A program made the position numbers and the translations under genes. The notes below the pieces were generated by a model. That model did not search any database and had not been told where the DNA came from. It saw nothing but the letters and a program-made list of their open reading frames with translations. This document shows positions 5,881 to 36,853 of a DNA stretch of 64,000 bases, in pieces. This DNA is from Nitrospira sp. Ga0074138 (lineage in GTDB: Bacteria; Nitrospirota; Nitrospiria; Nitrospirales; Nitrospiraceae), in NCBI GenBank assembly GCA_001464735.1, contig LNDU01000045.1, positions 1-64,000 on the forward strand, given 5' to 3'. Positions within the stretch are counted from its first letter, which is position 1. The number at the start of each line of letters is the position of its first letter.

Positions 5881-6404
5881 GGTTGGCGTAGCTCCTTAGG
5901 CTCAGCTCCAGTATCTAGTCACGAACCTGGATCGGTAGGCCACGATACGTCAGATCCACTGGCCTCGTCAACAGAATTGCCGTCATCATTACCCTAGTCC
6001 TTCAAACTGCTTTCAAACTGCTTTGCCAACACCAGGTCACATATGGATGAATCAGAGTTCGTAGGCGTTCATGAGTCTCTACCGACCCTTTTCAGGCCCC
6101 CATAACTTGATCTGTCGATTCAACAGTGATTCTGCAGCATACTTGATAGTCAAAGTCACCGCACCTACTCCCTTCTCTCCATTGGGCATCCATAATGCTA
6201 CCGATATGGATGCTATCTTGATGATCCCACCCGGACAGGTGTCGGCCCAAAACGCTCTTGGGAGTCATGCTCACGCCATTGAATAACAGACCTACTTTGT
6301 GCCGCCATCACTCTGCTGACTTGACTCCCCCTACCACCCCTCGTACGCTCAATCTCTGTCAAAACTTTTGTTCGCTGTTTCTTCTTATGAAAGGAGTCCC
6401 TCGT
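5881..6404. other. divergent intergenic region, ispH / unknown gene
   Basis: About 520 bases between two divergent genes, so it should hold both promoters; neither could be fixed with confidence. It contains a short direct repeat of TTTCAAACTGC-like sequence around 5999-6023. Small frames here lack ribosome-binding sites and recognisable content. AAAGGAG just before 6405 belongs to the next gene. Confidence 0.4.
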
Positions 6405-17267: not shown

Positions 17268-18470
17268 GTGAACTCCCACCCATCCCAACCGCTGTCGCTT
17301 GCAGATTTTGAGATTTCCCCTGAACGGGGTTTCCTGCCGTCGGATCCTTGTGAAACTCTGCCCGACTCTCCCACGCTAAACCATCTCGGCCGCGAGATGC
17401 CGAAGCTGTTGAGCGCGCGGCGAGTCCGGCAGTTTATCGACGAACAACCGTCGTTGCTCCCGTCCATTCCAACCAGTTGGCATGATAACGAATACCGAGC
17501 CTCGATGAGGATCCTGTCATTCGCCGGCCACGCTTATGTCTGGGAAACACCGGGGCAGCCGGCCATCAAGCTCCCCTCTCACCTCGCACAGCCATGGTAT
17601 GAGATCGCCCAGAAACTCGGCCGTCCGCCGGTCCTGTCCTATGCGTCTTACGCATTGGACAACTGGCGCCGGCTTGACGGGACGAAGCCAATTCAGCTCG
17701 ACAACATCGTGCTGTTGCAAAATTTTCTCGGTGGGTTGGATGAAGAGTGGTTCGTCGTCGTCCATATCCAGATTGAGAAGCAAGCGGGGCCTGGCCTGGA
17801 GGGCCTGGTGCGGGCGATCAATGCGGCATCAAAAGGGAATGACGATGAGGTCCTGTCGGGCTTACGAACTCTGGCCGCCGCTCAAACCGCTATGCGCGAC
17901 ACGCTGCTCCGCATGAAAGAGCGCTGCGATCCCTATGTCTATTACACCCGCGTGAGACCCTACATTCACGGCTGGAAGAATAGTCCGTCCCTGCCCGAGG
18001 GACTCATCTATGACCACGTCGAAGCCTACGCACGGCAGCCGCAGCAGTTTCGTGGCGAGACCGGCGCGCAGAGCTCAATCGTCCCTTGTTTGGACGCCGG
18101 ACTGGGCATCCACCATGCACCTGATCCCTTGACGGTGTACTTACAAGAAATGCGGGAGTACATGCCACCTACCCACCGCGCCTTTCTTCAGGCCCTGGAG
18201 AACCAGACTGATGGCCAAGGGCGCGCTCTGCTTTCCGGCTATGTCCATGATCGCAGGCAGAGCCACCCCGAACTGTGGTCCGCCTACTGTGCCTGTGTTG
18301 ACCTTCTGGCCCAGTTCCGGGAAATCCACATCGGCTACGCAGACAGCTACATCAACCGTCAGAACCAAACTAGTACGACCAACCCCACAGCCGTGGGCAC
18401 CGGCGGCACCCCCTTCATGACCTACCTACAGAAGCACCTGGACGAAACCAAACAAGGTATTGCGGTCTAG
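17268..18470 (+). CDS. indoleamine 2,3-dioxygenase family protein
   Basis: A 400-residue homologue of indoleamine 2,3-dioxygenase, the haem enzyme that opens the indole ring of tryptophan to N-formylkynurenine. Family marks are RVRPYIHGWK (residues 228-237), FRGETGAQSSIVPCLDAGLGIHH (261-283), MPPTHRAFLQALE (299-311), the proximal haem ligand candidate His354 in AQFREIHIGYADSYI, and GTGGTPFMTYLQKHL (377-391). The start is GTG with GAGGAGG 5 bases upstream. Other kynurenine-pathway genes are not next to it, so the substrate and role are open; many bacterial members are slow on tryptophan. It has no signal peptide and should be cytoplasmic. Confidence 0.88.
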   Translation: MNSHPSQPLSLADFEISPERGFLPSDPCETLPDSPTLNHLGREMPKLLSARRVRQFIDEQPSLLPSIPTSWHDNEYRASMRILSFAGHAYVWETPGQPAIKLPSHLAQPWYEIAQKLGRPPVLSYASYALDNWRRLDGTKPIQLDNIVLLQNFLGGLDEEWFVVVHIQIEKQAGPGLEGLVRAINAASKGNDDEVLSGLRTLAAAQTAMRDTLLRMKERCDPYVYYTRVRPYIHGWKNSPSLPEGLIYDHVEAYARQPQQFRGETGAQSSIVPCLDAGLGIHHAPDPLTVYLQEMREYMPPTHRAFLQALENQTDGQGRALLSGYVHDRRQSHPELWSAYCACVDLLAQFREIHIGYADSYINRQNQTSTTNPTAVGTGGTPFMTYLQKHLDETKQGIAV

Positions 18471-18504: not shown

Positions 18505-19281
18505 CTAGCGCCCTCTCTTTTCTTCAAGCCAAGCAACTCTGAAAGGAGCCATCCAGTCATATTGAATAGCAGGAACTGCGGTGATGAGAGCACTCTGTTC
18601 AAGGAGAAGAGTGCAGTCCTTAGCAAGGCGTTCAATTGTATCAATGCACGAATCTAGCTCTGCATAGGTAGGAAACTTTTTCATACCCGTTTTGTCGAGA
18701 TGCGCAACGTGTTTGTTCGTGTAAATGCGAAGCCTCTTCTGACACTTAACAAGCGCCGTTCTATGTCTTGATATACGTTTCTTGCTGATCACATCAGCTC
18801 CTGGCGTCGACAAACGATCAAAATCCCTATGACCGAATTGCTTCACAAAGTCTTTATAGGGACGAGTGAACCGACGACGGCTTATCACCTGTGGATAATC
18901 TTCTATGTCCTTCGCCAGATTGTAGAGCGAGGTAGATCTCTTATCTCTGTCAGCCAATCGGCGGATGTGAATCGACATATCGCTGACATATGCTCTATGC
19001 ATCCAGTCATAAAAAGCGCTGGGCACCTGAAGACGTGGGTTGTCCTGGATCAGTTTAGTAACTTGCTGATAAACGAATCGCTTTGACGCCAAATCATATA
19101 TAGAATTCTTGATTACCTGGAACTGTCTCTTCCACTGCTTGAACTTGTTGGACCGTGCGCGAGTTGACAAAAGTGAGGAAGATGGAGAGGTTGGTTTCTT
19201 AAGCTGGATTGAGCACAATGGAGACATTCTGAACTTCCAGGCTATTGCGGCGTATCGAAACAAGGTACCGCGCACGCTCAC
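18505..19281 (-). CDS. AbiU2-type HEPN protein, putative toxin
   Basis: A 258-residue basic, helical protein resembling AbiU2-like HEPN proteins. The body contains VPSAFYDWMHRAYVSDM and IHIRRLADRD, then the typical HEPN signature RIYTNKHVAHLDK (R-x5-H), where HEPN nucleases carry their catalytic Arg and His. HEPN proteins often act as RNases in abortive infection or toxin-antitoxin pairs. It follows a nucleotidyltransferase gene by 17 bases. The start used is GTG at 19281; a downstream ATG at 19227 is possible, as the first 18 residues look unrelated to the family. Base composition is lower in GC than the flanks, suggesting acquisition. Toxin activity is inferred. Confidence 0.7.
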   Translation of the reverse strand: MSVRGTLFRYAAIAWKFRMSPLCSIQLKKPTSPSSSLLSTRARSNKFKQWKRQFQVIKNSIYDLASKRFVYQQVTKLIQDNPRLQVPSAFYDWMHRAYVSDMSIHIRRLADRDKRSTSLYNLAKDIEDYPQVISRRRFTRPYKDFVKQFGHRDFDRLSTPGADVISKKRISRHRTALVKCQKRLRIYTNKHVAHLDKTGMKKFPTYAELDSCIDTIERLAKDCTLLLEQSALITAVPAIQYDWMAPFRVAWLEEKRGR

Positions 19282-19298: not shown

Positions 19299-19847
19299 TC
19301 AGACGGAAGATTCGAGCAGAATGCGCACTTCTTGGGCAAGTCCTAATACATCGGCCTGGGCGATCAGGCTTTCCCGGTCTATCCCGTTGGGTTTTCGGAC
19401 CGCTACAATGCTTCGGGCGTCCTGTAGATCGACTGGCCCTCCGGCGTAGAGCTTCAAGAGCACGAGCGCTTGCCAGTTTACGACCGGCACCAAACGACCA
19501 AATACGTTTAGGGTTTCAACTCCATTAAACGTAATGGCTGCCAATTTTGACGGCAGAACGATCAGCTGAACCGGCACTTCTTGCCCTTCACATTTCAGGC
19601 TGAGCCTGAAGACACCTCGTAGCGGGTCATCTATGCCACCAGATTCGTATGCGGCTCCAAGGTGGGTAGCCAACGCCTGTGGGTCTGAGGTCCCAAGGGC
19701 CACTGCGAGATCAATATCTTGCGTGGCTCGCGCAACACCCCAAGCCGACACAGCAAAACCACCGATCAACGCGTACGAATGAAGCAGGCGCTCCTTCTGC
19801 GCTTGGTCTAGACGTCCAACAATCTGGCTTAGGGCTTCGGAGAACAC
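19299..19847 (-). CDS. AbiEii/MNT-like nucleotidyltransferase
   Basis: A 182-residue protein with the polymerase-beta-type nucleotidyltransferase core: GGFAVSAWGVARATQDIDLAV (residues about 29-49) gives the GG motif and the Asp-x-Asp pair. A third acidic strand residue expected in active members falls in VPVQLIVLP, where the usual Asp appears to be Gln, so activity is uncertain. A C-terminal helical part (VNWQALVLLKLYAGGPVDLQDA) is as in DUF6036/AbiEii proteins. GTG start, overlapping the upstream 60-codon ORF by 19 bases, and 17 bases before the HEPN gene. HEPN and nucleotidyltransferase genes often pair as toxin and antitoxin, the latter adding nucleotides to the toxin. Confidence 0.75.
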   Translation of the reverse strand: MFSEALSQIVGRLDQAQKERLLHSYALIGGFAVSAWGVARATQDIDLAVALGTSDPQALATHLGAAYESGGIDDPLRGVFRLSLKCEGQEVPVQLIVLPSKLAAITFNGVETLNVFGRLVPVVNWQALVLLKLYAGGPVDLQDARSIVAVRKPNGIDRESLIAQADVLGLAQEVRILLESSV

Positions 19848-20011
19848 CGGTTCAATCGGTAGCAGAAATCGGAGAGGCTCAATGCAATCGTCAGCCGTTC
19901 TTCTGGAGTCTGACGCCTAGCCCGTTCAATCTTCTCGTCAGCAAGCTGCTGACCCAACTTGCTCGGTCGCCGTCGTGACCCCTGAGAGATGGTCGGTTGA
20001 CTTGGTTTCAT
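19829..20011 (-). CDS. small basic protein, first gene of the island
   Basis: A 60-residue protein, rich in Arg/Lys at its N-terminal half and ending in ERLTIALSLSDFCYRLNR. Short proteins of this sort (a TPEERL...AL..SDF helix) often precede AbiEii-like nucleotidyltransferases and are assumed to be antitoxin-like partners. It overlaps the downstream nucleotidyltransferase gene by 19 bases, a sign of coupled translation. No Shine-Dalgarno sequence precedes the ATG, but a TATACT -10-like box lies only 7 bases upstream, so the message may be leaderless. No clear DNA-binding fold could be named. Confidence 0.6.
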   Translation of the reverse strand: MKPSQPTISQGSRRRPSKLGQQLADEKIERARRQTPEERLTIALSLSDFCYRLNRCSPKP

Positions 20012-20018
20012 GAGGACG

Positions 20019-20024
20019 AGTATA
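20019..20024 (-). promoter_or_regulatory. -10 box of a possible leaderless promoter
   Basis: Reading minus, TATACT lies 7 bases before the ATG of the 60-residue ORF, so transcription would start at about the A of the ATG. The -35 region (TTTTCG, 17 bases upstream) is poor. The absence of a Shine-Dalgarno sequence fits a leaderless message. Confidence 0.35.
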
Positions 20025-20163
20025 CATGCATCTGCTAGACCCGAAAAGGATGAAGAGGGAAGCCGCTATAATCCGAACCCGAGAAACCCCGATGCTGAAG
20101 AGCGCACTACCGTTGCTCCCGCGTGCGCGCTCGGGGAGCAAGAGACTAGCAGGGATGGCCTAC

Positions 20164-20487
20164 TTACTTCCCGAATGCTTTTTTCAGCAACGGTTCGATT
20201 TCGCCTTTGGCAGCCATTGGGTCGAGGACGTCGGTATCTCCATAGAACGTCCCGTCGATAAATACCTTGGGGAGTGTCGGCCAATTGGTGATCTTCGTCA
20301 GCGCTTCCCGTTTCGCCGGTTGCGACAGGACGTCGATCAGTTCGTATGGGTACCCATACTTATCGAAAAACTGCATGGTTTCCCTCGTGAACCCACACAT
20401 CGGCATGGTCTTCGTCCCTTTGCCGTAAATCAAAATTTTATGGGCCTTCACTTCGTTTTGGATTTCTTCTTCGATTTGGTCGGCCAT
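20164..20487 (-). CDS. grxD: monothiol glutaredoxin (Grx4 type)
   Basis: A 107-residue monothiol glutaredoxin, which carries or delivers 2Fe-2S clusters with glutathione and BolA partners. The active site reads MPMCGFT with a single Cys31; the common form in this family is CGFS, so a Ser-to-Thr change is present. Other family marks are KGTKTMP near residue 23, TNWPTLPKVFIDGTF (the cis-Pro loop) and GDTDVL. A clear TAGGAGGA ribosome-binding site precedes the ATG. It follows the BolA gene by 9 bases; the two form a Grx-BolA operon, the standard functional pair. Confidence 0.94.
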   Translation of the reverse strand: MADQIEEEIQNEVKAHKILIYGKGTKTMPMCGFTRETMQFFDKYGYPYELIDVLSQPAKREALTKITNWPTLPKVFIDGTFYGDTDVLDPMAAKGEIEPLLKKAFGK

Positions 20488-20496
20488 GATGTCCTC

Positions 20497-20736
20497 CTAA
20501 GCCTCATCTCTGGTGCGCGCCGTTAATTCGAGCGCATGGATTCGTCCGTCTTTCATCGGCACGTCTAACGCTTGATAGATCATCCGATGCCGGTCTAAGA
20601 GGTTTTTCCCATGAAAACCATCTGAGACAATCACAACCTTGAGGTGGTCCATTGTTCCTGTACGGTCGGTCACCGTCACCACGGCATCCGGCAAGGACTT
20701 GCGAACATAGTCAGTCAGTACGTCTGGGGTAATCAC
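20497..20736 (-). CDS. BolA/IbaG family protein
   Basis: A 79-residue BolA-like protein, first gene of a two-gene unit with the monothiol glutaredoxin. The class II KH-like core is seen in DHLKVVIVSDGFHGKNLLDRHRMIYQAL, with the conserved FxGK and RHR..Y elements. BolA proteins bind 2Fe-2S clusters jointly with CGFS glutaredoxins and act in cluster trafficking or regulation. The only conserved His residues available as cluster ligands are those in the FHGK and DRHR parts. Promoter must lie in the 260-base divergent gap before the response regulator gene. Confidence 0.92.
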   Translation of the reverse strand: MITPDVLTDYVRKSLPDAVVTVTDRTGTMDHLKVVIVSDGFHGKNLLDRHRMIYQALDVPMKDGRIHALELTARTRDEA

Positions 20737-20995
20737 CGGCCTCCACTCCTCTTGTCCTCTTGCTTATTCGATACCCTAGCCGAAATGGACTCTGAAACGC
20801 AATGTGCATCCTCGGTGGTGGTTTTCCGCAATTATGGTGGTGCATGTGAGCCAGCACCCACCAGCAACAAAAATTCTGGTCGAGCAAGCCGTTGAATTGT
20901 TTCAGACTCACCTTCGTCACGTTTCGGCATCAAGCTTGCCATACTCACAATACAAACGGAAACGGATCACCCCGCCCTTCACCGAGGAGGTTTTT

Positions 20996-21430
20996 ATGAG
21001 TGACTTCAAATCCGGGTTCTTTGTGGGAGGTGAGAGCTGCAATGGCCGCGTCCTCGTTGTGGATGATGAGCCCGATATCCGCAAGGTCGTCCGCATGACG
21101 TTGCAGAAAGCCGGCTACGATGTCCTTGAAGCAGAGAACGGCGAGAAGGCCATCGAAACCATCAACTACGGGGAAAATCGGCTGCTCCTTGATGTCATCA
21201 TCTGCGACATCCGAATGCCGAAGGTGAATGGGATCGAAGCGATCGCCTACTTCCGCCAGAATTATACTCGGGTCCCCTTGATCGTCCTGACCGGATTCCC
21301 CGACACCGACATGGCCACGGCCTTACTCCGACAAGGCGTGGTGGATTATCTCGTGAAACCGGTAGAGGGCGAGAAACTGAAGGCCTCCGTCGCACGTGCC
21401 ATGGAGCAGCGTGAATTGGCCCATCTCTGA
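20996..21430 (+). CDS. single-domain response regulator
   Basis: A 144-residue receiver protein without an output domain. The acid pocket Asp23/Asp24 (VVDDEPDI), the phospho-acceptor Asp71 (IICDIRMPKVNG) and the Lys of YLVKPVEGEKL are present. The start at 20996 is set by GAGGAGG 5 bases upstream; the frame is open 64 codons further back, without such a site. It begins a plus-strand cluster with two histidine kinases and a haem c protein, and may take phosphate from either kinase. As it has no DNA-binding domain, the next step of the pathway is unknown. Confidence 0.93.
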   Translation: MSDFKSGFFVGGESCNGRVLVVDDEPDIRKVVRMTLQKAGYDVLEAENGEKAIETINYGENRLLLDVIICDIRMPKVNGIEAIAYFRQNYTRVPLIVLTGFPDTDMATALLRQGVVDYLVKPVEGEKLKASVARAMEQRELAHL

Positions 21431-21462
21431 GGGAACAGGCCACAGCATAGCAGGGAGCCAGC

Positions 21463-22575
21463 ATGACGATCATCTCTCCGACCATGTCCTATCCGCAAGC
21501 CGACAATCAGGGAATCGGATCAGCTCCCGCCTCGCCTCCGATGAGAGTGGCCATCATTGGGGCGGGGCGTGGGGGCATGGCCCTGCTCGATGCGCTCCAT
21601 CAGATCAGCAGGATTCAGATCGTCGGCATCACCGATCAGAATCCCTCGGCTCCCGGGCTCACACGCGCCCAAGAGCTCCACGTGCCGGTCTATGACCGGG
21701 TGACCGACTTGATCACGCACCAAGGGCTCAACCTTGTGATAGACGTCACCGGTGATCCAGCGATGGAGTCGGTGCTTCGGGAGGAGGTGCCTGCGGGGGC
21801 CGATGTGGTCAATGGCCAGACCGCACGGCTTCTCTGGGTACTCGTGCAACATGAATCGACATTGCAAACCGAATTGCTCCATGCCGAGAAACTTGCTGGA
21901 ATCGGCTCGTTCGCTGCCGGCATCGCGCATGACATGAACAATCCGCTCCAGCTGATTCTGGGTCTGGCGGAAAATCTGACGGACGAAACGGACCTGGAAG
22001 CCGTGCACCTGCAGGCCCACGATATTATTGAAGCCGTGAAACGGACGACGGCCATTTGTCGAGACCTTACGTCCTATTCTCGTCGCGCATCCTTACGGCA
22101 AGACTGCCTGATTAGCGTCGGCGGCAAGTTGGATGAAGCGCTCAAGATTGCCCGCTATGCGGTGGCGCTCCAAGACATTGAAATTCGTAAGCTGTATCAG
22201 CCAGACGTCGTTGTGAAGGGGAACCCCGATGAGCTTCTCCATGTGTTCGTCAATCTCATTACCAACGCCGTGCAGGCCATGGAACACCACGGAACCTTGA
22301 CGCTGGAAACCAACGCGATGGCCGACGCGACGCAGATTCGTGTCTCCGATACCGGCAGCGGCATCGCCCCAGAGCTCCTTGGTCGAATCTTTGAACCCTT
22401 CTTCACGACAAAACCACCAGGGAAGGGAACCGGATTGGGTTTGTACAATATCAAAAATGTGATTCATCACATGAATGGCACGATAGGGGTCGACAGTCAG
22501 ATCGGCCGAGGCTCAACCTTTACCCTCACATTTCCCGGTGAGTCCGGTGCCGGTGAGAGGACCACTCAGTCATGA
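21463..22575 (+). CDS. soluble histidine kinase with N-terminal NAD(P)-binding domain
   Basis: A 370-residue protein with an unusual join. Residues 27-125 form a Rossmann fold: MRVAIIGAGRGGMALLDAL (GxGxxG), acidic residue Asp58 at the end of the second strand, and LVIDVTGDPAMESVL, as in dehydrogenases of the homoserine/oxidoreductase type. From 140 on it is a kinase: GIAHDMNNPLQLILG with His156, N box NLITNAVQAMEHHG, and GKGTGLGLYNIKNVIHHMNG. No membrane helix is present. It may link the cell's NAD(P)H state, or a bound dinucleotide, to phosphotransfer; this is inference. The stop overlaps the start of the next kinase gene (ATGA), so translation is coupled. Confidence 0.9.
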   Translation: MTIISPTMSYPQADNQGIGSAPASPPMRVAIIGAGRGGMALLDALHQISRIQIVGITDQNPSAPGLTRAQELHVPVYDRVTDLITHQGLNLVIDVTGDPAMESVLREEVPAGADVVNGQTARLLWVLVQHESTLQTELLHAEKLAGIGSFAAGIAHDMNNPLQLILGLAENLTDETDLEAVHLQAHDIIEAVKRTTAICRDLTSYSRRASLRQDCLISVGGKLDEALKIARYAVALQDIEIRKLYQPDVVVKGNPDELLHVFVNLITNAVQAMEHHGTLTLETNAMADATQIRVSDTGSGIAPELLGRIFEPFFTTKPPGKGTGLGLYNIKNVIHHMNGTIGVDSQIGRGSTFTLTFPGESGAGERTTQS

Positions 22576-25067
22576 AGGGAACTCCGATGCCATCGCCGCC
22601 TGGTACCAGATGGGGGCTGAAGGCGAAAGTCATCCTCTCTATGCTGCTCGTCGGTGTCATCCCGCTCGTCGTCGGCTTGGGGATGGCATTCTGGCAGGGG
22701 TCTCAAGAAATCCGGGAAGTCAGTGGGGAAAGCTTTAAAGCACTGGCGACCGAAGCCGCCCGTAAACTCGATCTCCTCCTCGCCGAAGAAATCGCGCACA
22801 CCGCGCGCATCGCGAATGACCCGGCGATCATTCGCGCGTTGGAGCAACGGCGTGATGCGCGGGGAGACCCCAAGAGTCCGACCACGGCACTCACTGACTT
22901 CGAGCAGCGCTGGAAGGCAAAAGATGCTGCCGTCGTCAAGTCCATTATCGATAATCCTCTCAGCACCTTGCTCCATGAATACTTTACCGGCGTCCATAGT
23001 GCGCCGGGCCAGTCGCTTCCGCACGTGGTTCGCTCATCGACAAAGATGCTCTTCCTGACCGATGCGCAGGGTGCGCTCGTCGGGACCATGACTGACCATC
23101 CGGCGTTCCGCCACCAGAAGTCCCACTGGTGGCAGGGTGCCTTCAATAAAGCGGTGGGCAAGCTCTATATCGAAGATGTGCGTTTCGACGACCAGGTGAA
23201 CGCCTATGTCTTCTCCATCTCACTTCCTGTCATGGATAGTCTCCGGTACGAGGTCGTCGGAGTGCTGCACCGCGTGATCGATGCCAGAGAGTTCTTCTCT
23301 CCCGCGACCCATGTCACTCGCTTTGGAAAGACCGGCCACGTCATGTTGATCGATACCAACGGGATCGTCGTCAGCTGCCCGATTCTTCCCACCGGCGTCC
23401 CGTTGTCCGATCCGAAGCTCATCCCGCTCGTCACACCGCCACACCCCGGTTGGGTTCAAACCTCAAGCGACGGCCACGGCGGACAGTCGACCTCCGTCAT
23501 CGGCTTTGCCCCTCTGGCAGAGACCAGCCGGGCGACCAACGGCTCGATTGACAATGGGTCGTGGCACACCTTCGTCTGGCAATCGTCCGATGAACTCTTC
23601 GCGCCGATTCAGCATCTGTTCACCTGGGTGACGGTGTTCGGAGCCGTCGCTGTCGTGCTACTAGCCTCGCTGGGCTACCTCGCCGCCAGTCGCATCGTGA
23701 CGCCCGTACGGCAACTGCAAATGGCCGCGCAGTCAATCGGGCGCGGTGAATTGCGGACACCGATTCAGATCCACACGGGTGACGAATTGGAGGACCTGGC
23801 CGAAGAATTCAACCGCATGAACCAGCAGTTGAAAGTTGCCTTCGCCGGATTGACCGACCAGGTCAAGTTGAAAACCCAGGAAGTCCAGGTCCTTCAGCAG
23901 TCGACGGATCAGATCTTAGACGCCGTCCCCACTCCCATTCTCCTCATCGATGCCCACGAAACTGTACGCTACATCAATCAGGCGGCCCGCGATTCTTTCA
24001 AGGTCCAAGAACCGATGTCAGGAGCGTCGCTGTTCACGATCCTTCCCCTCGACCCAGCCGTTCAGAAACAACTTCACGCAGAGTTCCAAGCCAACGGGGA
24101 TACGTCTCTTGCCACAGCCGGTATCAAGCGCGAGACGGCGCCGAGGGATCCACTTGCGCCAAGTGCCGATCACGAATCGGCCGGGCATCGTGCTGAGCTC
24201 CACATCGGATCGCGCATCTATCACTATCAATGGTTCCGATTACCCACAAGACCAGGAGAAGAAGATAGTATCGGGCTGGTGCTTCGAGACACCACGGATG
24301 AGAGTCAACTACAAGATAAGCTGGTCCAGGCTGAAAAGACAGGAAGCCTCGGAGTCCTCACCGCTGGGATCGGCCACGAACTCAACAATCCCTTGTTCGG
24401 TATCATCGGGTTAGGGGAAGCGATTCAGGACGAGCAGGATTTGGAGCAGATCAAGTCTTGCGCCCAGGACATCGTGGCCCATGGCCGTCGCATGGCGACG
24501 ATCATTCGCGATTTTACCGGCGTGACAAACCGTGAGGCCTTCGACCAGCACGTACCGGTGCCTGTGGAGCAGATAATGGACCAAGTGCTGGCCACGGCAC
24601 AGACCACCGTTGAAATGAAAGACATTGTGATCCACAAAACCTATGCGGGTCATACCCCTGTGCTGGTCTTTCCGGACCAACTTCGGCAAGCGTTAGTAAA
24701 TCTCGTGACCAATGCTGCCCAAGCCATGAAGGGCACCGGCACGCTTACATTGACGACTGCCGCGTCGGACCATACGGTGACGGCGACGATCGCCGATTCC
24801 GGCCCCGGCATCTCCAAACAGCACCTATCAAAGGTCTTTGATCCGTTTTTTACGACCAAGGGACAGGGGGAAGGTTCTGGACTCGGACTCACGGTGGCCA
24901 GGCGGATTATCCGAAAGTTCGGGGGCGATCTCCGCATCGAGAGCGTCGAAGGCCAAGGCACCACCTGCGTTGTCACCCTCCCGATCGGTTCTCCCCTATC
25001 TTCCGAAGGAGGCCCATGGACATCGTCCGCATCACGTTCCGAGCCGCAACCATCGCACTCTTCGTAG
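22572..25067 (+). CDS. cache-HAMP-PAS sensor histidine kinase
   Basis: An 831-residue membrane kinase. A first helix (about residues 17-41) and a second (about 348-372) enclose a 300-residue periplasmic double-cache-like sensor, including the signature TGHVMLIDTNGIVVSCP. HAMP follows (about 373-425), then a PAS domain (about 445-560), then HisKA with GIGHELNNPLFGIIG and HATPase_c with NLVTNAAQAMKGTG, ADSGPGISKQH and GSGLGLTVARRII. It overlaps the preceding kinase by four bases and overlaps the next gene by 52 bases. The tight packing suggests that the two kinases, the receiver protein and the haem protein form one pathway. Confidence 0.93.
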   Translation: MKGTPMPSPPGTRWGLKAKVILSMLLVGVIPLVVGLGMAFWQGSQEIREVSGESFKALATEAARKLDLLLAEEIAHTARIANDPAIIRALEQRRDARGDPKSPTTALTDFEQRWKAKDAAVVKSIIDNPLSTLLHEYFTGVHSAPGQSLPHVVRSSTKMLFLTDAQGALVGTMTDHPAFRHQKSHWWQGAFNKAVGKLYIEDVRFDDQVNAYVFSISLPVMDSLRYEVVGVLHRVIDAREFFSPATHVTRFGKTGHVMLIDTNGIVVSCPILPTGVPLSDPKLIPLVTPPHPGWVQTSSDGHGGQSTSVIGFAPLAETSRATNGSIDNGSWHTFVWQSSDELFAPIQHLFTWVTVFGAVAVVLLASLGYLAASRIVTPVRQLQMAAQSIGRGELRTPIQIHTGDELEDLAEEFNRMNQQLKVAFAGLTDQVKLKTQEVQVLQQSTDQILDAVPTPILLIDAHETVRYINQAARDSFKVQEPMSGASLFTILPLDPAVQKQLHAEFQANGDTSLATAGIKRETAPRDPLAPSADHESAGHRAELHIGSRIYHYQWFRLPTRPGEEDSIGLVLRDTTDESQLQDKLVQAEKTGSLGVLTAGIGHELNNPLFGIIGLGEAIQDEQDLEQIKSCAQDIVAHGRRMATIIRDFTGVTNREAFDQHVPVPVEQIMDQVLATAQTTVEMKDIVIHKTYAGHTPVLVFPDQLRQALVNLVTNAAQAMKGTGTLTLTTAASDHTVTATIADSGPGISKQHLSKVFDPFFTTKGQGEGSGLGLTVARRIIRKFGGDLRIESVEGQGTTCVVTLPIGSPLSSEGGPWTSSASRSEPQPSHSS

Positions 25068-25609
25068 GGGGACTCTGGGGCGGGGCTTCTCTTCACGCAG
25101 CCAAGGAGAACCCACCCATCGGCAGCATCTCTCCGGAAAGAGTCGCCGATTACGTGCATGCCATCCTGGAGGCTGACCGGACGATCTATACGATGCACAT
25201 CGTCAACCGTATGCAGGAGAAAGGTATCGTCGCTGCGAGCGAACATTGGGAGCAGGACAGCACACTCCTGCTGCCGGCTCAGTTTCTTCAACATTCAGGC
25301 CGGTTGGTCGCCGAGAGCGGACGAGGTATTCGCTATAGGCTTATCGGGTTCTCTCCGATCTATCAACGCAATGCGCCTGCCACAGAGTTTGAACGAAAAG
25401 CGCTGGAGGTGCTTAGGCGACAGCCTGACCGGCCGATTACCGGAGTTGTGTCAAGCGGCAAGAAGCAGTACTTCCAAGCTATCTATGCAGACCGTGCCGT
25501 CTCATCCGCCTGCATCACGTGCCACAACAGTCATCCGTTAAGCCCAAAGCAGGACTTCAAGTTGAATGATGTGATGGGTGGGATCGCCATTACGATTCCG
25601 CTGGAGTAG
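25016..25609 (+). CDS. Tll0287-like (DUF3365) haem c periplasmic protein
   Basis: A 197-residue secreted protein with a signal peptide (residues 1-28, ending SLHA) and one c-type haem site, CITCH at 166-170. The frame around it, YFQAIYADRAVSSACITCHNSHP, and the upstream MQEKGIVAASEHWEQDSTLLLPAQFLQ agree with the Tll0287/DUF3365 family of PAS-like haem proteins. Such domains are often the sensor part of kinases or guanylate cyclases; here it is a separate periplasmic protein, coded 52 bases inside the end of the kinase gene, and is likely to feed a redox, NO or oxygen signal to the cache kinase. The ligand is not known. Confidence 0.9.
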   Translation: MDIVRITFRAATIALFVGGLWGGASLHAAKENPPIGSISPERVADYVHAILEADRTIYTMHIVNRMQEKGIVAASEHWEQDSTLLLPAQFLQHSGRLVAESGRGIRYRLIGFSPIYQRNAPATEFERKALEVLRRQPDRPITGVVSSGKKQYFQAIYADRAVSSACITCHNSHPLSPKQDFKLNDVMGGIAITIPLE

Positions 25610-25682
25610 CAAAACGCGTGATAGGTCATTGTCGGCTAGAGAACGAAAAGCACTGTGCGCAGGTGCAGCGTGACTAAGGAGG

Positions 25683-26780
25683 TTACGAAGGCATGGGTGG
25701 ACCTGCAGGAGCGACCGGTGGCTTGAGGTAGTACTCCTCTCGATAGATCTGCACCGCCGTCATCAGCAGACTGATAAGAATTGGGCCGACGAAAAGTCCA
25801 AGCAACCCGTACAGCGCCAACCCGCCCAACACGCTGAGTACGAGGAGCAACACGGGAATCTGCACATCTTGGCCGATCAACCACGGGCGTAGGAACTGGT
25901 CGACCATCGACACGACGCCAATTCCCCAAACCAACATAACCAGCGCTTTCCCGCTCGCACCCACCCAGAATAGGTAGAGCACCACGGGTCCCCACACCAG
26001 TCCGGTTCCGCCGAACGGGATCGGCGCCAACACGGTCGTCAACGCGGTCAGTCCCATCGGAAACGGCACATCGAGCGCCCAATAGGCCATCCCCGCCAAA
26101 AGCCCTTGAACGATCGCCGTGACGAGCATCCCTTTCACCACCGCCCGAATCGTTTGATCCAACCGGGTCAGGATTTTGGACTTGTGCGACTCATCCATCG
26201 GAATCAAATCGTATAACACGGTGAGCCACTGCGGACCGTCTTTGAAGAGAAAAAATAGCACCAACAGCATAATGAAGAAATTCGTCACCAGCGCGAAGGT
26301 GTTCTTCAGCAAGCCTCCCATTCCTCCGACCAAAAACTGGCCCAATTCCGTGACTCCACCGACGAGCGACTGTTCCAATGAAACGGTGGGACTGCCGGTC
26401 CCGGATACCGCCGCCTTCAACCAACTTCCCACCAACGGAATGCCGGCCACTTGATCCGGCAATCGCTGGAGCCCGCCGGCTGAGATCCATACTCGGATCT
26501 CCTGCTCCGCTGCCCCGGCTTCCCGCACCAACATCACCCCCATTGCAACTAACGGCACAACGACAACCCCCAGCGCGCCGACGGTCAGCAGAGCGGCAGA
26601 GAGCACGTCTTTCCCACCGAACCATTTGGCCAGCCGGAGATGCATGGGGAAGGCCCAATGGGCTAACAGGCCGGCCCACAGGGCCGAAAACACAAACGGT
26701 TTAAACATCAACCCGATTTGGTAGAGGAGCAAGACTAGGAGGGCAAAGAACACGATGGAAAAGATCTGTTGTCGAGTCAT
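25683..26780 (-). CDS. AI-2E family transporter (PerM-like)
   Basis: A 365-residue polytopic membrane protein with about eight helices, of the AI-2E/PerM transporter family (DUF20). The N-terminal two helices (FSIVFFALLVLLLY; VLSAALLTVGALGVVVVPLV), a middle extracytoplasmic part with long helices, and the C-terminal FGGTGLVWGPVVLYLFWVG and VLGGLALYGLLGLFVGPILISLL fit the family. Substrate is not predictable; some members export autoinducer-2, others carry Na+/H+. The frame is open for 38 more codons upstream, but the ATG at 26780 begins at the family's usual N-terminus. It ends 73 bases from the haem c gene (convergent). Confidence 0.9.
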   Translation of the reverse strand: MTRQQIFSIVFFALLVLLLYQIGLMFKPFVFSALWAGLLAHWAFPMHLRLAKWFGGKDVLSAALLTVGALGVVVVPLVAMGVMLVREAGAAEQEIRVWISAGGLQRLPDQVAGIPLVGSWLKAAVSGTGSPTVSLEQSLVGGVTELGQFLVGGMGGLLKNTFALVTNFFIMLLVLFFLFKDGPQWLTVLYDLIPMDESHKSKILTRLDQTIRAVVKGMLVTAIVQGLLAGMAYWALDVPFPMGLTALTTVLAPIPFGGTGLVWGPVVLYLFWVGASGKALVMLVWGIGVVSMVDQFLRPWLIGQDVQIPVLLLVLSVLGGLALYGLLGLFVGPILISLLMTAVQIYREEYYLKPPVAPAGPPMPS

Positions 26781-30118: not shown

Positions 30119-33100
30119 TTAGGGCTTGCGGTCAGGCGGAAGTCCGAGGTCGAGCAAATGTTTCAGCCCCTTGAATTCGGTGGCTTCTGCGTGCTGATCC
30201 TGTTCTACTTCTTTACGACGGCGTTCCCGCTCGCTGCGGCTGCCCCCTAACACCGGCAGCGGGTCAAAGTGTCGCCAGGCCGGCATGGTCGCCATGAAAC
30301 TCGCCAGCAGGGTGCCGCTGCGGAGGGCCCACGCGACGAAACCGGCCGACAAGGTGGTCCCCGTCAGCGCGGCGATCCGCGCCGTAATCGCATGCTGCTC
30401 TTGGGACACGCCCATAGCCCGCTCTAGCGAGGCCGTCATTTCATCGAGTTTGGAGAACAGGAGATCGCTCACCGACTGAGATTCCTTGTCTGGTTCAGAT
30501 TCTGGCGTTGGAGTCGCTTCCTCGGGAATCCCGGTCAAGAGCAGCCTTCTGGTTTCGTCAATCCAGTGGAAGAGCACCGAATCCTTCACCACATCGATCG
30601 TTTCTCTCGGTTCCTCAGGCCTGATAACCATCAGGCGCTCCGTCGGCGATGGCAGAACGGTTGCAGAATGAGATTCCACTGGCGCAGAGCGTGAATCTGG
30701 CAATACCGGAGCCTGAGGGAGTGCGTCTGTTGGCGGCTCGGCGGGGCCCGAGGGGCGCGAAGGCACCGGTCCTGGACCAGTCGGACTCAGCGGGGCCGTC
30801 GGGAGCAGGACCGGCGGGATAAGCGGAGTCGTTGGGGTGGGTGGCAGTCCTTCTGCCACATCCGTCACCGTCACCTGGATCGTCTGGGTCGTGCTCGCCC
30901 CCTGGCTATCGATGACTTGCACCTGCACGACATACACGTTGTCGCCATTCGCGTCAGTGGCCACTTCAAAATCGGGAGGCGCCGTAAAGTTCAACGCGCC
31001 GGTGGCGGCATTGATCGTGAATAGCGCTTGATCCACTCCCCCGCTGATGCTGTAGGTCAGCGCCTGCGCCGGCAGATCCACATCCGCCCCAGTCACGATC
31101 GTGACCGCGCTGACATTCTCCGCCACGTTGATCGCCGCCGTGGCGCCGCCCCCGTTACTCGTAATCGTGGGTGTATCATTTACCGGCGTGATCGTCAGGG
31201 TCATGGTTGTGGGGCCGAGGGTCCCCCCAGCCCCATCATTGACCGTAAACGTGAAGCTGTCGCTCGTCGTCTCAGATCCGTCATGCACATAGACCAGCCG
31301 ATTGGAGGCAATATCCGCTTGCGTAAAGGTGGTCGCGGACACACCAGGGGCGGTCGTCAGTTCCAGTCGTCCATAGGCCGGACCGGTCCCAATGGTGTAC
31401 GTCAACTGAGCGGCCGTATTATCTACATCTGTCACGGCCAACTCGCTGCTATCGATCGTATCCGTGCCGCCATCAGCCACCGTGCTGCCGGTGTTGGCAC
31501 CCAAGATTGGCGCATCGTTCACCGCCGTCACCGTCACGGTCACCGTGGCGGTTTCGGCCACCCCCCCGCTCGTGATGGTGTAGGTAAAGCTGTCGGTCCC
31601 GTTGAAGTTCGCGGTGGGCGTATAGGTCACGGTCCCGTTGGCCAGGAACGTCACCGTCCCGTTCGCCCCTTGCGTCACGCTCGTCAGCACCGGCGTGCCC
31701 TCGAAGCTATCTGCCGTGGCCCCGTTCGTGCCCGTGAGCACGTTCGCACTGATCGCGGTATCCTCCGCCGTCGTCAAACTGTCGTTGGTGATGTCCGCCA
31801 CCGCCGTCACGGTCAGCGTGATCACGTGGGTGGTGCTGGTGCCCGCATCATCGGTGAGGGTCACGGTGAAGCTGTCCGTCCCGTTGTAGTCGGCATTCGG
31901 CGTGTAGCTCCACAGGCCCGTCGCCGGATCGATGCTCGCCGTCCCGTTCGTCGCGCTCGTGGTCACGGTAAACACCGTGCCGTCGCTCAGCCCGTCCGCA
32001 TCGGTCGCCGTCAGGGTCCCCGTCAGGGTCGTGTCTTCATTGCCCGTCCCGCTCGTGCCCCCTGTCACGATCGTGGGATCGTTCACCGCCGTCACATTGA
32101 CGGTGAGAGTATTCGGCACCGCATCGTAGGCGTTGTTGCTATCACGGACCGAGAAGGTGACGCTCGCATAGCCGGTGCCATTGGCATTCGCGGCCGGTGT
32201 AAAGACGAGATTCCCCGCCGTAATGTCGGCCACGGTGATGACCTGGCCCGCTGTCACGGCTACCCCAGACAGCGTCAAACTGCCGGCGCTCGGAAGCGTG
32301 TCAATCCGCACCGCACTCAGACTGTCACCCGCATCCACATCGCTGAACCCGAAATTGGCCGTGGTCAATGTATGGGAGGTATCCTCGTTGACCGTGACGG
32401 TGGCATCGGCGCCGGTTGGGGCTTCGTTCACGTTGGTCAGGGTGATCGTAAACGTCTCGTCGTAGGTCAGCCCGCCCGCGTCCGTCACCCGCACGATCAC
32501 GCTGTGGCTCGTCGCCGCTTCGTAGTTCAGCAGCGTGCTATTCGCCACGGTGATCTCACCAGTCATGGCATTGACGGCAAACCGCCCGCCCGCAGAGTCG
32601 GTGAGGCTGTAGCTGAACGTCTCACTGGCATCTGAGTCTTCTGCAGTAACAAAGCCAACATGGCTGCCGTTGGCACTATTTTCGTCAATTGACAGTTGTG
32701 CATTCACGGCGCCGGTAGTAAATCCAGTCCCGCTTGCATGCGCGATGCTGAGGTTGTTTCCACTGACGATCTCAACAACCTGATTCGAACCATTGAAACC
32801 GTCCATCTGCCAGTTGGCAACCAGACCGACGGCGGCGGCTTCTGCCGGTGTCAGACCGAGTTCTTGCTGGTAATACTGGCCAATCTCACCGGCAGTGCGA
32901 ACATCGTTCCAGATGCGGACGTCATAGATGGTACCGGAAAAGTACTGAGTTGAGTCATACCCGCTGTTTTGGGCATCCTGCTCTTGCCCGAAGACGAACT
33001 GACCATTGGTCGTGTCAAGCGAGGAGCCCGCACTCAGCCCAGTACCTGATTCAATGAAGATCCCGTCAATATAGACGGACCAATCACCGGCGGTGCTATC

Positions 33101-36100
33101 CCAGGTCACTGACAGCGTATGAACGGTACCATCCACCAGGGCCGCCCGATAATCGATTGCACTTGCAGACGCCACAGTACTGGCACCAAAATCGATCTCA
33201 AGGTTATTTGACGGATCATCAAGCTGGATGCTGAGTTCGTCTCCGGCGGGGTTGTTGAAGGACATCAACACCGTCTCAAGAGGTAGATCATTGGCAGCGA
33301 AACGAATCTCCACGGTCGTGGCTGTCAGCGACTGTGACAAACCCGTATCCGAAATCAAATAGGCATCATTTCCACCATCCGTATTGAGTTCGATACCGCT
33401 CGACAGATCTGTCGGTGCATCATTGACGCCGCTGACGGTGACCGTCGTGTCGTAGTTGGCGCTGGTGCCGCCATCGCCGTCGGTCAACACATAGCGGACC
33501 GTACGAGCCCCAGTCGTGGGGGCATTGGTGTCCGTGTTCTGGTAGGTGATGTTCTTGACCAAGGCCGTCACCGCCGTGGGGGTGGCATTGCTGTTCAGCG
33601 TGATGACGAGGTTGCTGCCGCTGCTGCCCCCGGTGAAGGTGCCGATGGTGGTGCCGCCATAGGTGACATTGCTGCCGCTCACGCCGATCTGGCCTGCGCT
33701 GGTGCCCTGATTGCGAATGCTCAGGACATCTTCCGCGCTGTCGCCACCAGCAGGAATCGAGACGGTCAACGTCCCGGTATCGAAGTTGGTGCTGTCTACA
33801 TCAGACACCAGCGCATTGCTACTCTGTTCAATGACCAGAGGCCCATCGCCTTCGCTATAGCTCAGGCTGTCCCCACTCAAGCTCGTGATCGTCGGCGCGT
33901 CGTTGACTGGATCCACCAGGATGTGGACCGTCGCCACATTGGACAAATTGGTCCCGTCACTAACCTGATACGTAAAGGAGTCGGTCCCAGAGAAATTCGC
34001 GGCTGGTGTATAGGAAAAGGATCCGTCGGGGTTCAGGGTGAACGCACTGGCATGGGAAGGCCCGGTCACCATGATGATCGACAAGGTGTCGCCATCCGCG
34101 TCATAGTCGTTCCCCAGGACTCCTGAACCCGACACCGTGAGGGTCGTGTCTTCATTGACTCGATAGGTGGCCCATTGGGGAGTCTGTCCTGGAACTCCGC
34201 CTCCAAGCGTCCCATCAGAATTGGCCGTCAGATTGTCCGCTGTGGTTCCAGTGTTCTCATTAAACTTCCAGTAGCCGAGAAGCCCCGTCTCTGATCCGGT
34301 CAACGTACCGTTCAGATCACCGGCGATCTGTCCGGCTGTACGCACCACATTCCACACCTGCGCTTCGCTGATCTGACCATTGAAATACTGGTTTGCCGGA
34401 TTGTTCTCACGACCGCCGATTCGAAGGCTATCTTTGGTCGGATGGGCATCGCCGATCGTACCTGACCCAGCGAAGGTCTCCACCGCGACCCCATTCACAT
34501 AACTCGTGATGGTGCCGTTATCATACGTCACTGCGATATGCGTCCAGACATTCACCGGAATCACCACACCGGTATCATGCCAGCCCCAGCCGGGGTTGGT
34601 ATTCGCAAAAGCCCATTTAAGGCTCCCATCGGAATCCAAACCAACTTCGTACTCCCCTTCCTTGTTGATGATTATTTGCGTGGCTTGAGATGAAGGCTCC
34701 CTGTTGATCCAGGCCTCCATCGTCATCGTGTCCGTGACTTCGTAGACCACTCCGCTTCCCATATCGACGAAATCATCCACACCATCGAACGTGAGCCCGG
34801 CCCGGTCGTCTGCGGCCACAGGAGTCTCGTTCACGTTCGTCAGATTGATGGTAAAGGTCTCGTCGTAGGTCAGCCCGCCCGCGTCCGTCACCCGCACAGT
34901 CACGCTGTGATTCGCCGCCGCTTCGTAGTTCAGCAGAGTCCCATCGGCCACCGTAATCTCGCCCGTGCTGCTGTTGATGGCAAATCGTCCGCCGGCGCTA
35001 TCCGTAAAGCTGTAGGTCTTGGTATCACCCGTATCTGGATCCGTCCCACTCACGGTCCCCACCACCGTCCCGTTCGCCGCGTTCTCCGCCACCGTATTTG
35101 CTGACAAGCTCAAGTCCACCGGCGCATCGTTGACAGCCGTCACGGTCACATCTACGGTATCCGTGGCACTGGAGAAGGCCGTGGTCCCACCATTGCTCGC
35201 CGTGCTCACCTTCGTCCCCGCCGTGCCGCTCGTCTGGTCCCAGGCCCGCACCGTCAGCGCCGCGCTACTCGTCCCGTTGTAATTGGCATTCGGCGCAAAA
35301 TACAGCCGCGTACTGGCATTGTCCGCAAGGAGCAGCGCTGAGGTGTTGCTCACCGTGCCCACCGCCGTCCACGTCGTGCCCCCGTTCCGCGTGTAGTACC
35401 AGATCCCATTCGTCTGGTTGCTGCCTGTAATCGCGAGCCCCTTGGACGCTCCACTGTCCACATCGGTGATGCCTCCGGTGAAGGCGCTGATCAGCGAGCC
35501 CACCGCCCCGCTCGGCGCCCCCGCATCTTCCCCCACGGTGAGTGACAACGCCGTATCCGCCAACACCGGCGCATCGTTGACCGCACTGACCGTCACCGTC
35601 GTGTCATAGTTCGGACTGGTGCCCCCGTCCCCATCGGTCAGCACAAACCGCACGGTACGGGCCCCCGTCGTCGGCGCATTGGTGTCGGTATTCTGATAGG
35701 TGATGTTTCGCACCAGCGCGGTGACCGCCGTTGGCGTGGCGCTGCTGTTCAACGTGATGACGAGGTTCGCGCCGCCGCTGCCCCCAGTGAACGTCCCAAT
35801 GGTCACGCCCCCGTAGGTCACGTTGCTCCCGCTCACGCCGATCTGGCCCGCCCCGGTGCCTTGGTTCCGGATGCTCAGCACATCTTCCGCGCTGTCGCCC
35901 CCGGCCGGGATGGAGACGGTTAAGGTCCCGGTGTCGAAGTTCGTGCTATCGACATCGGCAACCACCGCGTTGCCACTTTCAATCACCACCGCCCCGGCCC
36001 CCTCGCTGTACGCCCGGCTGTCGCCGCTGAGATTGGAGATGGTGGGAGGCGTCTCGCCAGCCAGCAGGCCAAGCCAATCAAGCTGCAATTCGTCGGTCAC

Positions 36101-36853
36101 AACGAGCTGCGTCTCAATGGTGCCGATCTCCGTTTCCAGCATCCAGTCACCGCCCAGCAACGCGTGACCGGTGGCGTCCGTGCTCGCGGCGACGTCGGCG
36201 CCAGTCAACTGACCCAGCAACGTGGCCGCCGCTTGCCCATCCTGGCCTCCGGCGAAATTGCATCCATAGACAAGAATATCGGCCTGTTCCGATAAGGCTT
36301 CCCGGATCGTGGCCAGCTCGCCGGCATACGCCCCGGACATGGACTCGGCGGTAAGCGTGCCGGCACCAAGCTGCAACTCCCCGGAGCTACCATGCGAGAT
36401 GAGGTGGATGGCATCGATTCCGGTCCTGTCTGAAAGAGCGCTCGCCATCTGTTGCACGCCATCCCGGCTGGCATCGAGCATGATGACTTCAATGTTCAGA
36501 TCCAGCCCGCTGAGGAGTTCGCGATAATTCGGCACGGTCGGATCGATGAAGACAATCTCCGTCCTGGACTCGCCAGGGGAATAGGTCATAATGGCTTGAA
36601 GGAGTTCTTGCGACTCATTCTCTATAGCGGTTGGCTCTATACCACCTTCTGCGGACACCGCCGATTCGGCCTGGTCCTGCGCAACTTGTGCTTGACTGAC
36701 TTCCGCCGCCGTGGCTGTAGCGGCCGCATCGAACATCAGGCGGGATTCGAGCGAGAGCAGGGATGCCTGGACTCGGAAGGTGCCCGGAGCCTTTGGAGTC
36801 GGCTCCGGTCTGTCATTCTGCTGTGGCGCTGTGCGTTTTTTTTGCCCGAACAT
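30119..36853 (-). CDS. giant DUF4347/LamG/cadherin-repeat surface protein
   Basis: A 2244-residue protein, last gene of a minus-strand export train. Order: an N-terminal LEPR-like motif LESRLMFDAA (35-44); a DUF4347 domain (about 95-265) with SHG (His154) and YGCN (Cys198), a caspase-like pair; two near-identical modules of about 155 residues; cadherin-type repeats; two concanavalin/LamG-like domains (about 675-885 and 1150-1385); a chain of Ig-like/VCBS repeats marked by YNGTDSFT and VNDAP; a Pro-rich linker; and a C-terminal helix LSAGFVAWALRSGTLLASFM with a charged tail. The ATG has GAGGGGG upstream. Probably a surface or secreted adhesin. The C-terminus is not RTX-like, which argues for a non-classical route. 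Export through the neighbouring genes is inferred. Confidence 0.9.
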   Translation of the reverse strand: MFGQKKRTAPQQNDRPEPTPKAPGTFRVQASLLSLESRLMFDAAATATAAEVSQAQVAQDQAESAVSAEGGIEPTAIENESQELLQAIMTYSPGESRTEIVFIDPTVPNYRELLSGLDLNIEVIMLDASRDGVQQMASALSDRTGIDAIHLISHGSSGELQLGAGTLTAESMSGAYAGELATIREALSEQADILVYGCNFAGGQDGQAAATLLGQLTGADVAASTDATGHALLGGDWMLETEIGTIETQLVVTDELQLDWLGLLAGETPPTISNLSGDSRAYSEGAGAVVIESGNAVVADVDSTNFDTGTLTVSIPAGGDSAEDVLSIRNQGTGAGQIGVSGSNVTYGGVTIGTFTGGSGGANLVITLNSSATPTAVTALVRNITYQNTDTNAPTTGARTVRFVLTDGDGGTSPNYDTTVTVSAVNDAPVLADTALSLTVGEDAGAPSGAVGSLISAFTGGITDVDSGASKGLAITGSNQTNGIWYYTRNGGTTWTAVGTVSNTSALLLADNASTRLYFAPNANYNGTSSAALTVRAWDQTSGTAGTKVSTASNGGTTAFSSATDTVDVTVTAVNDAPVDLSLSANTVAENAANGTVVGTVSGTDPDTGDTKTYSFTDSAGGRFAINSSTGEITVADGTLLNYEAAANHSVTVRVTDAGGLTYDETFTINLTNVNETPVAADDRAGLTFDGVDDFVDMGSGVVYEVTDTMTMEAWINREPSSQATQIIINKEGEYEVGLDSDGSLKWAFANTNPGWGWHDTGVVIPVNVWTHIAVTYDNGTITSYVNGVAVETFAGSGTIGDAHPTKDSLRIGGRENNPANQYFNGQISEAQVWNVVRTAGQIAGDLNGTLTGSETGLLGYWKFNENTGTTADNLTANSDGTLGGGVPGQTPQWATYRVNEDTTLTVSGSGVLGNDYDADGDTLSIIMVTGPSHASAFTLNPDGSFSYTPAANFSGTDSFTYQVSDGTNLSNVATVHILVDPVNDAPTITSLSGDSLSYSEGDGPLVIEQSSNALVSDVDSTNFDTGTLTVSIPAGGDSAEDVLSIRNQGTSAGQIGVSGSNVTYGGTTIGTFTGGSSGSNLVITLNSNATPTAVTALVKNITYQNTDTNAPTTGARTVRYVLTDGDGGTSANYDTTVTVSGVNDAPTDLSSGIELNTDGGNDAYLISDTGLSQSLTATTVEIRFAANDLPLETVLMSFNNPAGDELSIQLDDPSNNLEIDFGASTVASASAIDYRAALVDGTVHTLSVTWDSTAGDWSVYIDGIFIESGTGLSAGSSLDTTNGQFVFGQEQDAQNSGYDSTQYFSGTIYDVRIWNDVRTAGEIGQYYQQELGLTPAEAAAVGLVANWQMDGFNGSNQVVEIVSGNNLSIAHASGTGFTTGAVNAQLSIDENSANGSHVGFVTAEDSDASETFSYSLTDSAGGRFAVNAMTGEITVANSTLLNYEAATSHSVIVRVTDAGGLTYDETFTITLTNVNEAPTGADATVTVNEDTSHTLTTANFGFSDVDAGDSLSAVRIDTLPSAGSLTLSGVAVTAGQVITVADITAGNLVFTPAANANGTGYASVTFSVRDSNNAYDAVPNTLTVNVTAVNDPTIVTGGTSGTGNEDTTLTGTLTATDADGLSDGTVFTVTTSATNGTASIDPATGLWSYTPNADYNGTDSFTVTLTDDAGTSTTHVITLTVTAVADITNDSLTTAEDTAISANVLTGTNGATADSFEGTPVLTSVTQGANGTVTFLANGTVTYTPTANFNGTDSFTYTITSGGVAETATVTVTVTAVNDAPILGANTGSTVADGGTDTIDSSELAVTDVDNTAAQLTYTIGTGPAYGRLELTTAPGVSATTFTQADIASNRLVYVHDGSETTSDSFTFTVNDGAGGTLGPTTMTLTITPVNDTPTITSNGGGATAAINVAENVSAVTIVTGADVDLPAQALTYSISGGVDQALFTINAATGALNFTAPPDFEVATDANGDNVYVVQVQVIDSQGASTTQTIQVTVTDVAEGLPPTPTTPLIPPVLLPTAPLSPTGPGPVPSRPSGPAEPPTDALPQAPVLPDSRSAPVESHSATVLPSPTERLMVIRPEEPRETIDVVKDSVLFHWIDETRRLLLTGIPEEATPTPESEPDKESQSVSDLLFSKLDEMTASLERAMGVSQEQHAITARIAALTGTTLSAGFVAWALRSGTLLASFMATMPAWRHFDPLPVLGGSRSERERRRKEVEQDQHAEATEFKGLKHLLDLGLPPDRKP
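32421..32615 (-). repeat. cadherin-type module, copy B
   Basis: DNA coding for the cadherin-like module (GEITVANSTLLNYEAATSHSV). It is closely similar to 34826-35020, with a shared run of about 40 identical bases that codes YDETFTI and its approach. Confidence 0.6.
33417..33893 (-). repeat. internal module repeat, copy B
   Basis: DNA coding for the second copy of a module of about 155 residues (DSTNFDTGTLTVSIPAGG to NYDTTVTVSGVNDAP). The protein is nearly the same as copy A, but the DNA differs at many third positions. Confidence 0.75.
34826..35020 (-). repeat. cadherin-type module, copy A
   Basis: DNA coding for the first cadherin-like copy (GEITVADGTLLNYEAAANHSV), paired with 32421-32615. 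Confidence 0.6.
35573..36036 (-). repeat. internal module repeat, copy A
   Basis: First copy of the module of about 155 residues, directly after the DUF4347 domain. It pairs with 33417-33893. Confidence 0.75.

Follow-up and report, generated by a model that had tools for sequence, protein, structure and literature searches.

A Rossmann-type N-terminal input domain on a histidine kinase of Nitrospira and on a range of other bacterial signalling proteins

Organization of the locus

The window analysed here is a stretch of 64,000 nucleotides from Nitrospira sp. Ga0074138 (contig LNDU01000045.1, positions 1 to 64,000), in which we annotated a four-gene operon whose second gene encodes a histidine kinase with an N-terminal Rossmann domain (hereafter the Rossmann kinase). 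The genes and the features within the kinase gene are listed below with the evidence for each.

20996..21430, + strand: response regulator of 144 aa whose single domain is a receiver (PF00072, E 4e-28)
21463..22575, + strand: cytosolic histidine kinase with an N-terminal Rossmann sensor domain, 370 aa (ORF list, Pfam, orthologues, AF2)
21541..21855, + strand: Rossmann-type input domain, residues 27-131 (Pfam DapB_N/GFO_IDH_MocA; AF2; PDB folds)
21559..21576, + strand: GxGxxG loop GAGRGG, residues 33-38 (orthologue and family conservation)
21634..21636, + strand: acidic D58 at the end of strand 2 (orthologue and family conservation)
21742..21759, + strand: DVTGDP motif after strand 4, residues 94-99 (orthologue and family conservation)
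21814..21984, + strand: continuous helix, residues 118-174, made up of the last Rossmann helix, the signalling helix and DHp helix 1 (AF2 models)
21907..22086, + strand: HisKA / DHp domain (Pfam)
21928-21930, + strand: phospho-acceptor H156 in HisKA (invariant among orthologues)
22219..22539, + strand: HATPase_c catalytic domain with N, G1, F and G2 boxes (Pfam; invariant motif residues)
22572..25067, + strand: dCache-HAMP-PAS-HisKA-HATPase membrane histidine kinase (Pfam; conserved downstream)
25016..25609, + strand: Tll0287-like protein with a CxxCH haem-binding motif, last in the cluster (PF11845, E 5e-18)

The receiver gene lies 32 bases upstream of the Rossmann kinase, the first 4 bases of the dCache kinase gene are also the last 4 of the Rossmann kinase gene, and the listed start of the Tll0287-like gene, whose haem motif reads CITCH in the translation, overlaps the dCache kinase gene. 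Rfam gave no match in 19900-25700. The order receiver, Rossmann kinase, dCache kinase and Tll0287-like gene was found in nearly all Nitrospira loci with enough flanking sequence and recurs in more distant Nitrospirota (L084, L085, L113, L119 and L120), while at other loci (L091, L115-L117 and L121) the receiver-Rossmann kinase pair is kept and the rest is absent from the fetched stretch. In almost all orthologous loci where this flank is available the receiver gene lies directly upstream of the Rossmann kinase, and its product is the probable phospho-acceptor partner of the kinase. The dCache kinase and the c-type Tll0287-like protein are probably co-transcribed with the Rossmann kinase, an arrangement in which cytosolic and extracytoplasmic sensors would feed one shared receiver.

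Further genes in the window include an indoleamine 2,3-dioxygenase family protein (17268-18470, + strand; PF01231, E 2e-89), a neighbour that is conserved in many Nitrospira loci, and a HEPN AbiU2-like protein (18505-19281, - strand; PF18734, E 4e-11) that adjoins an unassigned 182-aa ORF (19299-19847, - strand), the two being possibly a toxin-antitoxin pair. A protein of 2244 aa with cadherin/Ig repeats, an N-terminal DUF4347 and laminin-G/pentaxin-like domains (30119-36853, - strand) is a probable large surface protein.

Domain layout of the Rossmann kinase

A sequence-only reading of this DNA had proposed that the gene encodes a histidine kinase with a dinucleotide-binding Rossmann N-terminus, marked by GAGRGG and by an acidic residue ending strand 2, in an organism living on nitrite or a similar donor. 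The ORF of 370 aa at 21463-22575 on the forward strand is as described there, GAGRGG is found at residues 33-38 of a domain that matches dehydrogenase NAD-binding families in Pfam and adopts the fold in AF2 models, the acidic residue is D58, and the organism belongs to Nitrospira, in agreement with a nitrite-oxidising setting. The Pfam matches were DapB_N (E 4.5e-7) and GFO_IDH_MocA (E 9e-6), both within residues 27-120, and the Rossmann domain is followed directly by HisKA (PF00512, residues 149-208, E 1e-9) and HATPase_c (PF02518, residues 253-359, E 3e-26). The Pfam scan of the protein gave no PAS, GAF, HAMP or membrane sensor, which bears out the earlier statement that PAS, GAF and membrane sensors are missing, and no DapB_C, aldehyde dehydrogenase catalytic or Gfo/Idh C-terminal domain. 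CoA_binding, PglD_N and other nucleotide-binding families matched weakly, and on the full protein CoA_binding scored below the Pfam cut-off.

Because the first 26 residues vary and are disordered in the full-length model, the start codon is uncertain and the true start may lie downstream of 21463, as far as M27 (nt 21541), where the conserved part begins.

Predicted structure and nearest folds

Structure prediction, which the sequence-only reading had suggested, gave a full Rossmann fold for the domain modelled alone, with a beta-alpha-beta unit that carries GxGxxG after strand 1 and a mean pLDDT of 90 (AF2, with an alignment of the window and locus sequences as input). In model numbering the elements are E2-6, H10-20, E26-31, H38-45, H54-58, E65-68, H73-82, E88-90 and H92-119. 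The AF2 models contain no cofactor. By its position D58 is expected to contact the adenosine-ribose hydroxyls, and the DVTGDP motif is expected to form the second side of the nucleotide pocket. In the full-length AF2 model (mean pLDDT 77, pTM 0.47) residues 118-174 form a single helix in which pLDDT dips near residue 145. Given the pTM of 0.47, this model does not establish how the domains pack, and because confidence drops near residue 145 the coupling of the Rossmann domain to the DHp domain is put forward as a proposal only.

The closest solved structures were those of acylating acetaldehyde dehydrogenases (1nvm and 4lrs; Z 11.9, with 93-94 residues aligned at an rmsd of 1.7-1.9), and NAD-bound Gfo/Idh/MocA dehydrogenases were also among the closest folds. 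The fold matches mostly end at about model residue 106. Formyltransferases, which are Rossmann-like and do not bind NAD, reach a Z near 10, so the fold alone does not prove the ligand. When the family profile was compared with PDB sequences, acetaldehyde dehydrogenase (1e-5) and the redox repressor Rex (2e-5) came out as the best relatives, and in the alignment with Rex one of its strand-2 aspartates pairs with D58.

Conservation and selection

A search for the same fusion, also proposed in the sequence-only reading, found orthologues throughout Nitrospira and in other Nitrospirota. They occur in many Nitrospira records at 60-97% identity, including N. moscoviensis (L069), and outside the genus at 40-52%; the domain and its fusion are common to these orthologues over a range of 39-97% identity. 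In the sample of relatives, 59 of 59 genomes held at least one copy of the domain. Among 34 orthologues G33, G35 and G38 are invariant, D58 is always D, and D94, T96 and D98 of the DVTGDP motif do not vary; in the kinase part, H156 (34 sequences) and N268, D296-G298 and G322-G326 of HATPase_c are likewise invariant. When the target was compared with up to 23 orthologues, the median dN/dS came to 0.21 in the Rossmann part, against 0.05 in the linker/DHp and 0.08 in the catalytic part. The Rossmann domain is thus under purifying selection, but it is less constrained than the kinase parts and evolves faster. Orthologues, dN/dS and the predicted fold together indicate that the fusion is not a chance feature.

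One genome carries a decayed copy of the Rossmann kinase (L150, G020:C34:115000-123000) whose Rossmann domain is interrupted by two in-frame TGA stops; at this locus the receiver is intact and the genes for the dCache kinase and the Tll0287-like protein are missing.

Across the wider family, 92 of 104 non-redundant members keep GxGxx[GA] (a minority lacks one glycine), 103 have D or E at the end of strand 2 and 100 have T or S at position 96 of the DVTG motif, counts to be read with the fact that members were picked by a profile score that favours these very motifs. Within the domain, conservation is highest at the pocket residues, whatever the output or phylum. Retention of the motifs on outputs that lack an enzymatic half is as expected of a ligand-binding sensor.

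A domain shared by many signalling outputs

The sequence-only reading had treated the fusion as an isolated case, and this part of it did not hold: the kinase lies within a conserved operon and its domain belongs to a widespread sensor-domain family with many outputs. A second copy in the same genome precedes a NarX-like HisKA_3 kinase, which is followed by a NarL-like regulator (G000:C44, L002/L148), and this copy has counterparts in all four sampled families of the order. By profile search, 124 of the 245 Nitrospirota genomes sampled carry the domain. In members identified by Pfam and by reading, it stands N-terminal to sigma-54 AAA-Fis activators (L228, L229), to GGDEF-EAL (L225), GAF-GGDEF (L223, L236) and GAF-GGDEF-EAL (L221) proteins, to GAF-PAS-HisKA-HATPase-REC-GGDEF hybrids (L208, L212, L213) and to an MCPsignal protein of Acetoanaerobium (L207); plasmid records held a single relative, an MCP-type protein of Acetoanaerobium.

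Outside Nitrospirota, in samples whose phyla were assigned through record titles only, matches were found in 7 of 119 genomes from the phylum of a genome recorded as Holophagaceae, in 74 of 200 from that of a genome recorded as Gammaproteobacteria and in 1 of 140 from that of a genome recorded as Deltaproteobacteria. The members read from these samples have sigma-54, GGDEF, PAS/GAF kinase or mini-MCP outputs, with the exception of one short stand-alone copy. We considered that the weaker of these matches (frames of 210-425 aa) might be ordinary dehydrogenases and rejected this, as all those read were signalling proteins except the stand-alone L272.

Two other arrangements were seen. Short stand-alone copies with no output (L195/L242, L200/L227, L243 and L272) form a separate branch of the family. 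In four loci of one genus of the order (L111, at 5172-6056, L112, L114 and L129) the Rossmann domain lies within a receiver domain, ahead of the latter's C-terminal strand and helix, and the operon's kinase genes were not found near these copies.

When motif-based output labels were placed on a tree of the 104 members, we counted 19 changes versus 53.6 with shuffled labels, on a tree of only 105 columns that is poorly resolved and leaves the deep forks open. These counts suggest repeated re-use of the domain, with outputs still clustered by lineage. A range that takes in HisKA, HisKA_3, sigma-54 AAA-Fis, GGDEF, GGDEF-EAL, GAF, PAS and MCPsignal is the pattern of a sensor module; as an N-terminal input module the Rossmann domain is promiscuous, and its family is widespread.

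Relation to known systems

Among the closest known systems is the redox-sensing transcriptional repressor Rex, where a Rossmann domain with GxGxxG and a strand-2 acid serves as an NADH sensor; the Rex model in NCBIfam matched the Rossmann kinase weakly (9e-4). Rex, however, binds DNA and has a winged helix at its N-terminus, whereas the domain described here is itself N-terminal, on kinases, cyclases, sigma-54 activators and chemoreceptors. No Rex-type winged helix is present, as only the disordered residues 1-26 precede the domain and Pfam gave no DNA-binding domain. The N-terminal NAD domain of acylating acetaldehyde dehydrogenases (DmpF/MhpF type) is the closest solved fold, but here the catalytic/substrate and dimerisation domain that follows it in those enzymes is absent and signalling outputs take its place; the corresponding NCBIfam model matched over positions 2-78 of 285 only, with 26 bits against a cut-off of 282 bits. 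The N-terminal domains of DapB (PF01113) and of Gfo/Idh/MocA enzymes (PF01408) matched above the Pfam cut-off, and DapB has a D-x-T motif after strand 4 like that of the Rossmann domain. Unlike these enzymes, the protein has no C-terminal domain of their kind, carries its own DVTGDP signature and has a last helix that runs on into a signalling helix. The HisKA and HATPase_c core resembles AtoS and ZraS, the best NCBIfam matches (PDB match ZraS 9jfj, E 2e-33), which differ in that the kinase described here has a Rossmann input in place of a periplasmic, PAS or GAF sensor.

The domain has no dedicated Pfam or NCBIfam model, and in the open-access literature searched we found no description of a Rossmann sensor domain on signalling proteins. 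While NADH sensing by Rex, the kinases and the other outputs are known, the modular N-terminal Rossmann input common to them all appears to be new as far as Pfam, NCBIfam and the open-access literature reach.

Proposed mechanism and alternatives

In Rossmann enzymes GxGxxG together with a strand-2 acid is the usual signature of a preference for NAD(H) over NADP(H). Fold, motif and conservation support NAD(H) sensing as the most economical reading, and our best account, which we consider fairly probable, is that the domain is a redox sensor of NAD(H) type acting through the helix. It builds on the domain, its predicted fold, the conserved pocket, the continuity of the helix in the models, the gene order and the modular re-use; from these we infer the identity of the ligand, the dependence on redox state, the direction of the effect and the partnership with the receiver. 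The input domain would have kept the dinucleotide pocket of NAD-dependent dehydrogenases and lost their catalytic half, and the pocket would most likely bind NAD+ and/or NADH. How the last Rossmann helix is posed would depend on this binding or on the ratio of NADH to NAD+. In the model that helix continues as the signalling helix and enters the dimerisation/phosphotransfer domain, and a shift in it would set the autokinase or phosphatase activity of the protein on the single-domain receiver encoded beside it. The dCache kinase and the c-type Tll0287-like protein would bring extracytoplasmic input to the same receiver. Weighing against this account are the Z scores of the formyltransferases, the faster evolution of the domain, the glycine missing from a minority of relatives, the pTM of 0.47 with the pLDDT dip near residue 145, and the weak matches to CoA_binding and other nucleotide-binding families.

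The pocket could instead bind another adenine-containing or related small molecule, such as NADP(H), CoA or acyl-CoA, a nucleotide sugar or some other metabolite, in which case the protein would sense metabolism and not the NADH/NAD+ ratio. The weak matches to CoA_binding and PglD_N point in this direction, as do the loss of one glycine in some members and the fact that the nearest fold relatives, the acylating acetaldehyde dehydrogenases, also use CoA. Against it, the signature for NAD(H) is nearly universal in the family at the strand-2 acid, and CoA_binding does not reach its cut-off on the full protein; we regard such a ligand as unlikely, yet as the most serious competitor to NAD(H) sensing.

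A ligand-free domain, vestigial or structural and serving dimerisation or protein-protein docking, would accord with its faster evolution relative to the kinase, with the decayed copy and with the short copies that have no output. A mere scaffold, however, would not need pocket residues that are the best conserved of all across outputs and phyla, and we find this improbable. Its sequence and fold relatives among dehydrogenases would suggest an enzyme, in the form of a minimal oxidoreductase, but only the N-terminal half of such enzymes is present, their catalytic and C-terminal domains are missing and the fold matches mostly stop at about model residue 106; we give this reading very little credence.

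Significance

Beyond the Rex regulon, little is settled on how bacteria link their NADH/NAD+ balance to signalling, and a modular Rossmann input on kinases, diguanylate cyclases, sigma-54 activators and chemoreceptors would offer a direct answer that can be tested. We put at about even the chance that the family is an undescribed and widely shared sensor module for the cytosolic NADH/NAD+ state, one that connects without intermediates to two-component, sigma-54, cyclic-di-GMP and chemotaxis pathways. Its clear sequence signature means that the family could be annotated at once. If the proposal is true, the Rossmann input would give each of these pathways a direct redox-cofactor input, of a kind best known from Rex. 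Nitrospira must make NADH by reverse electron flow from nitrite, and in this genus the Rossmann input would then report a key constraint on growth.
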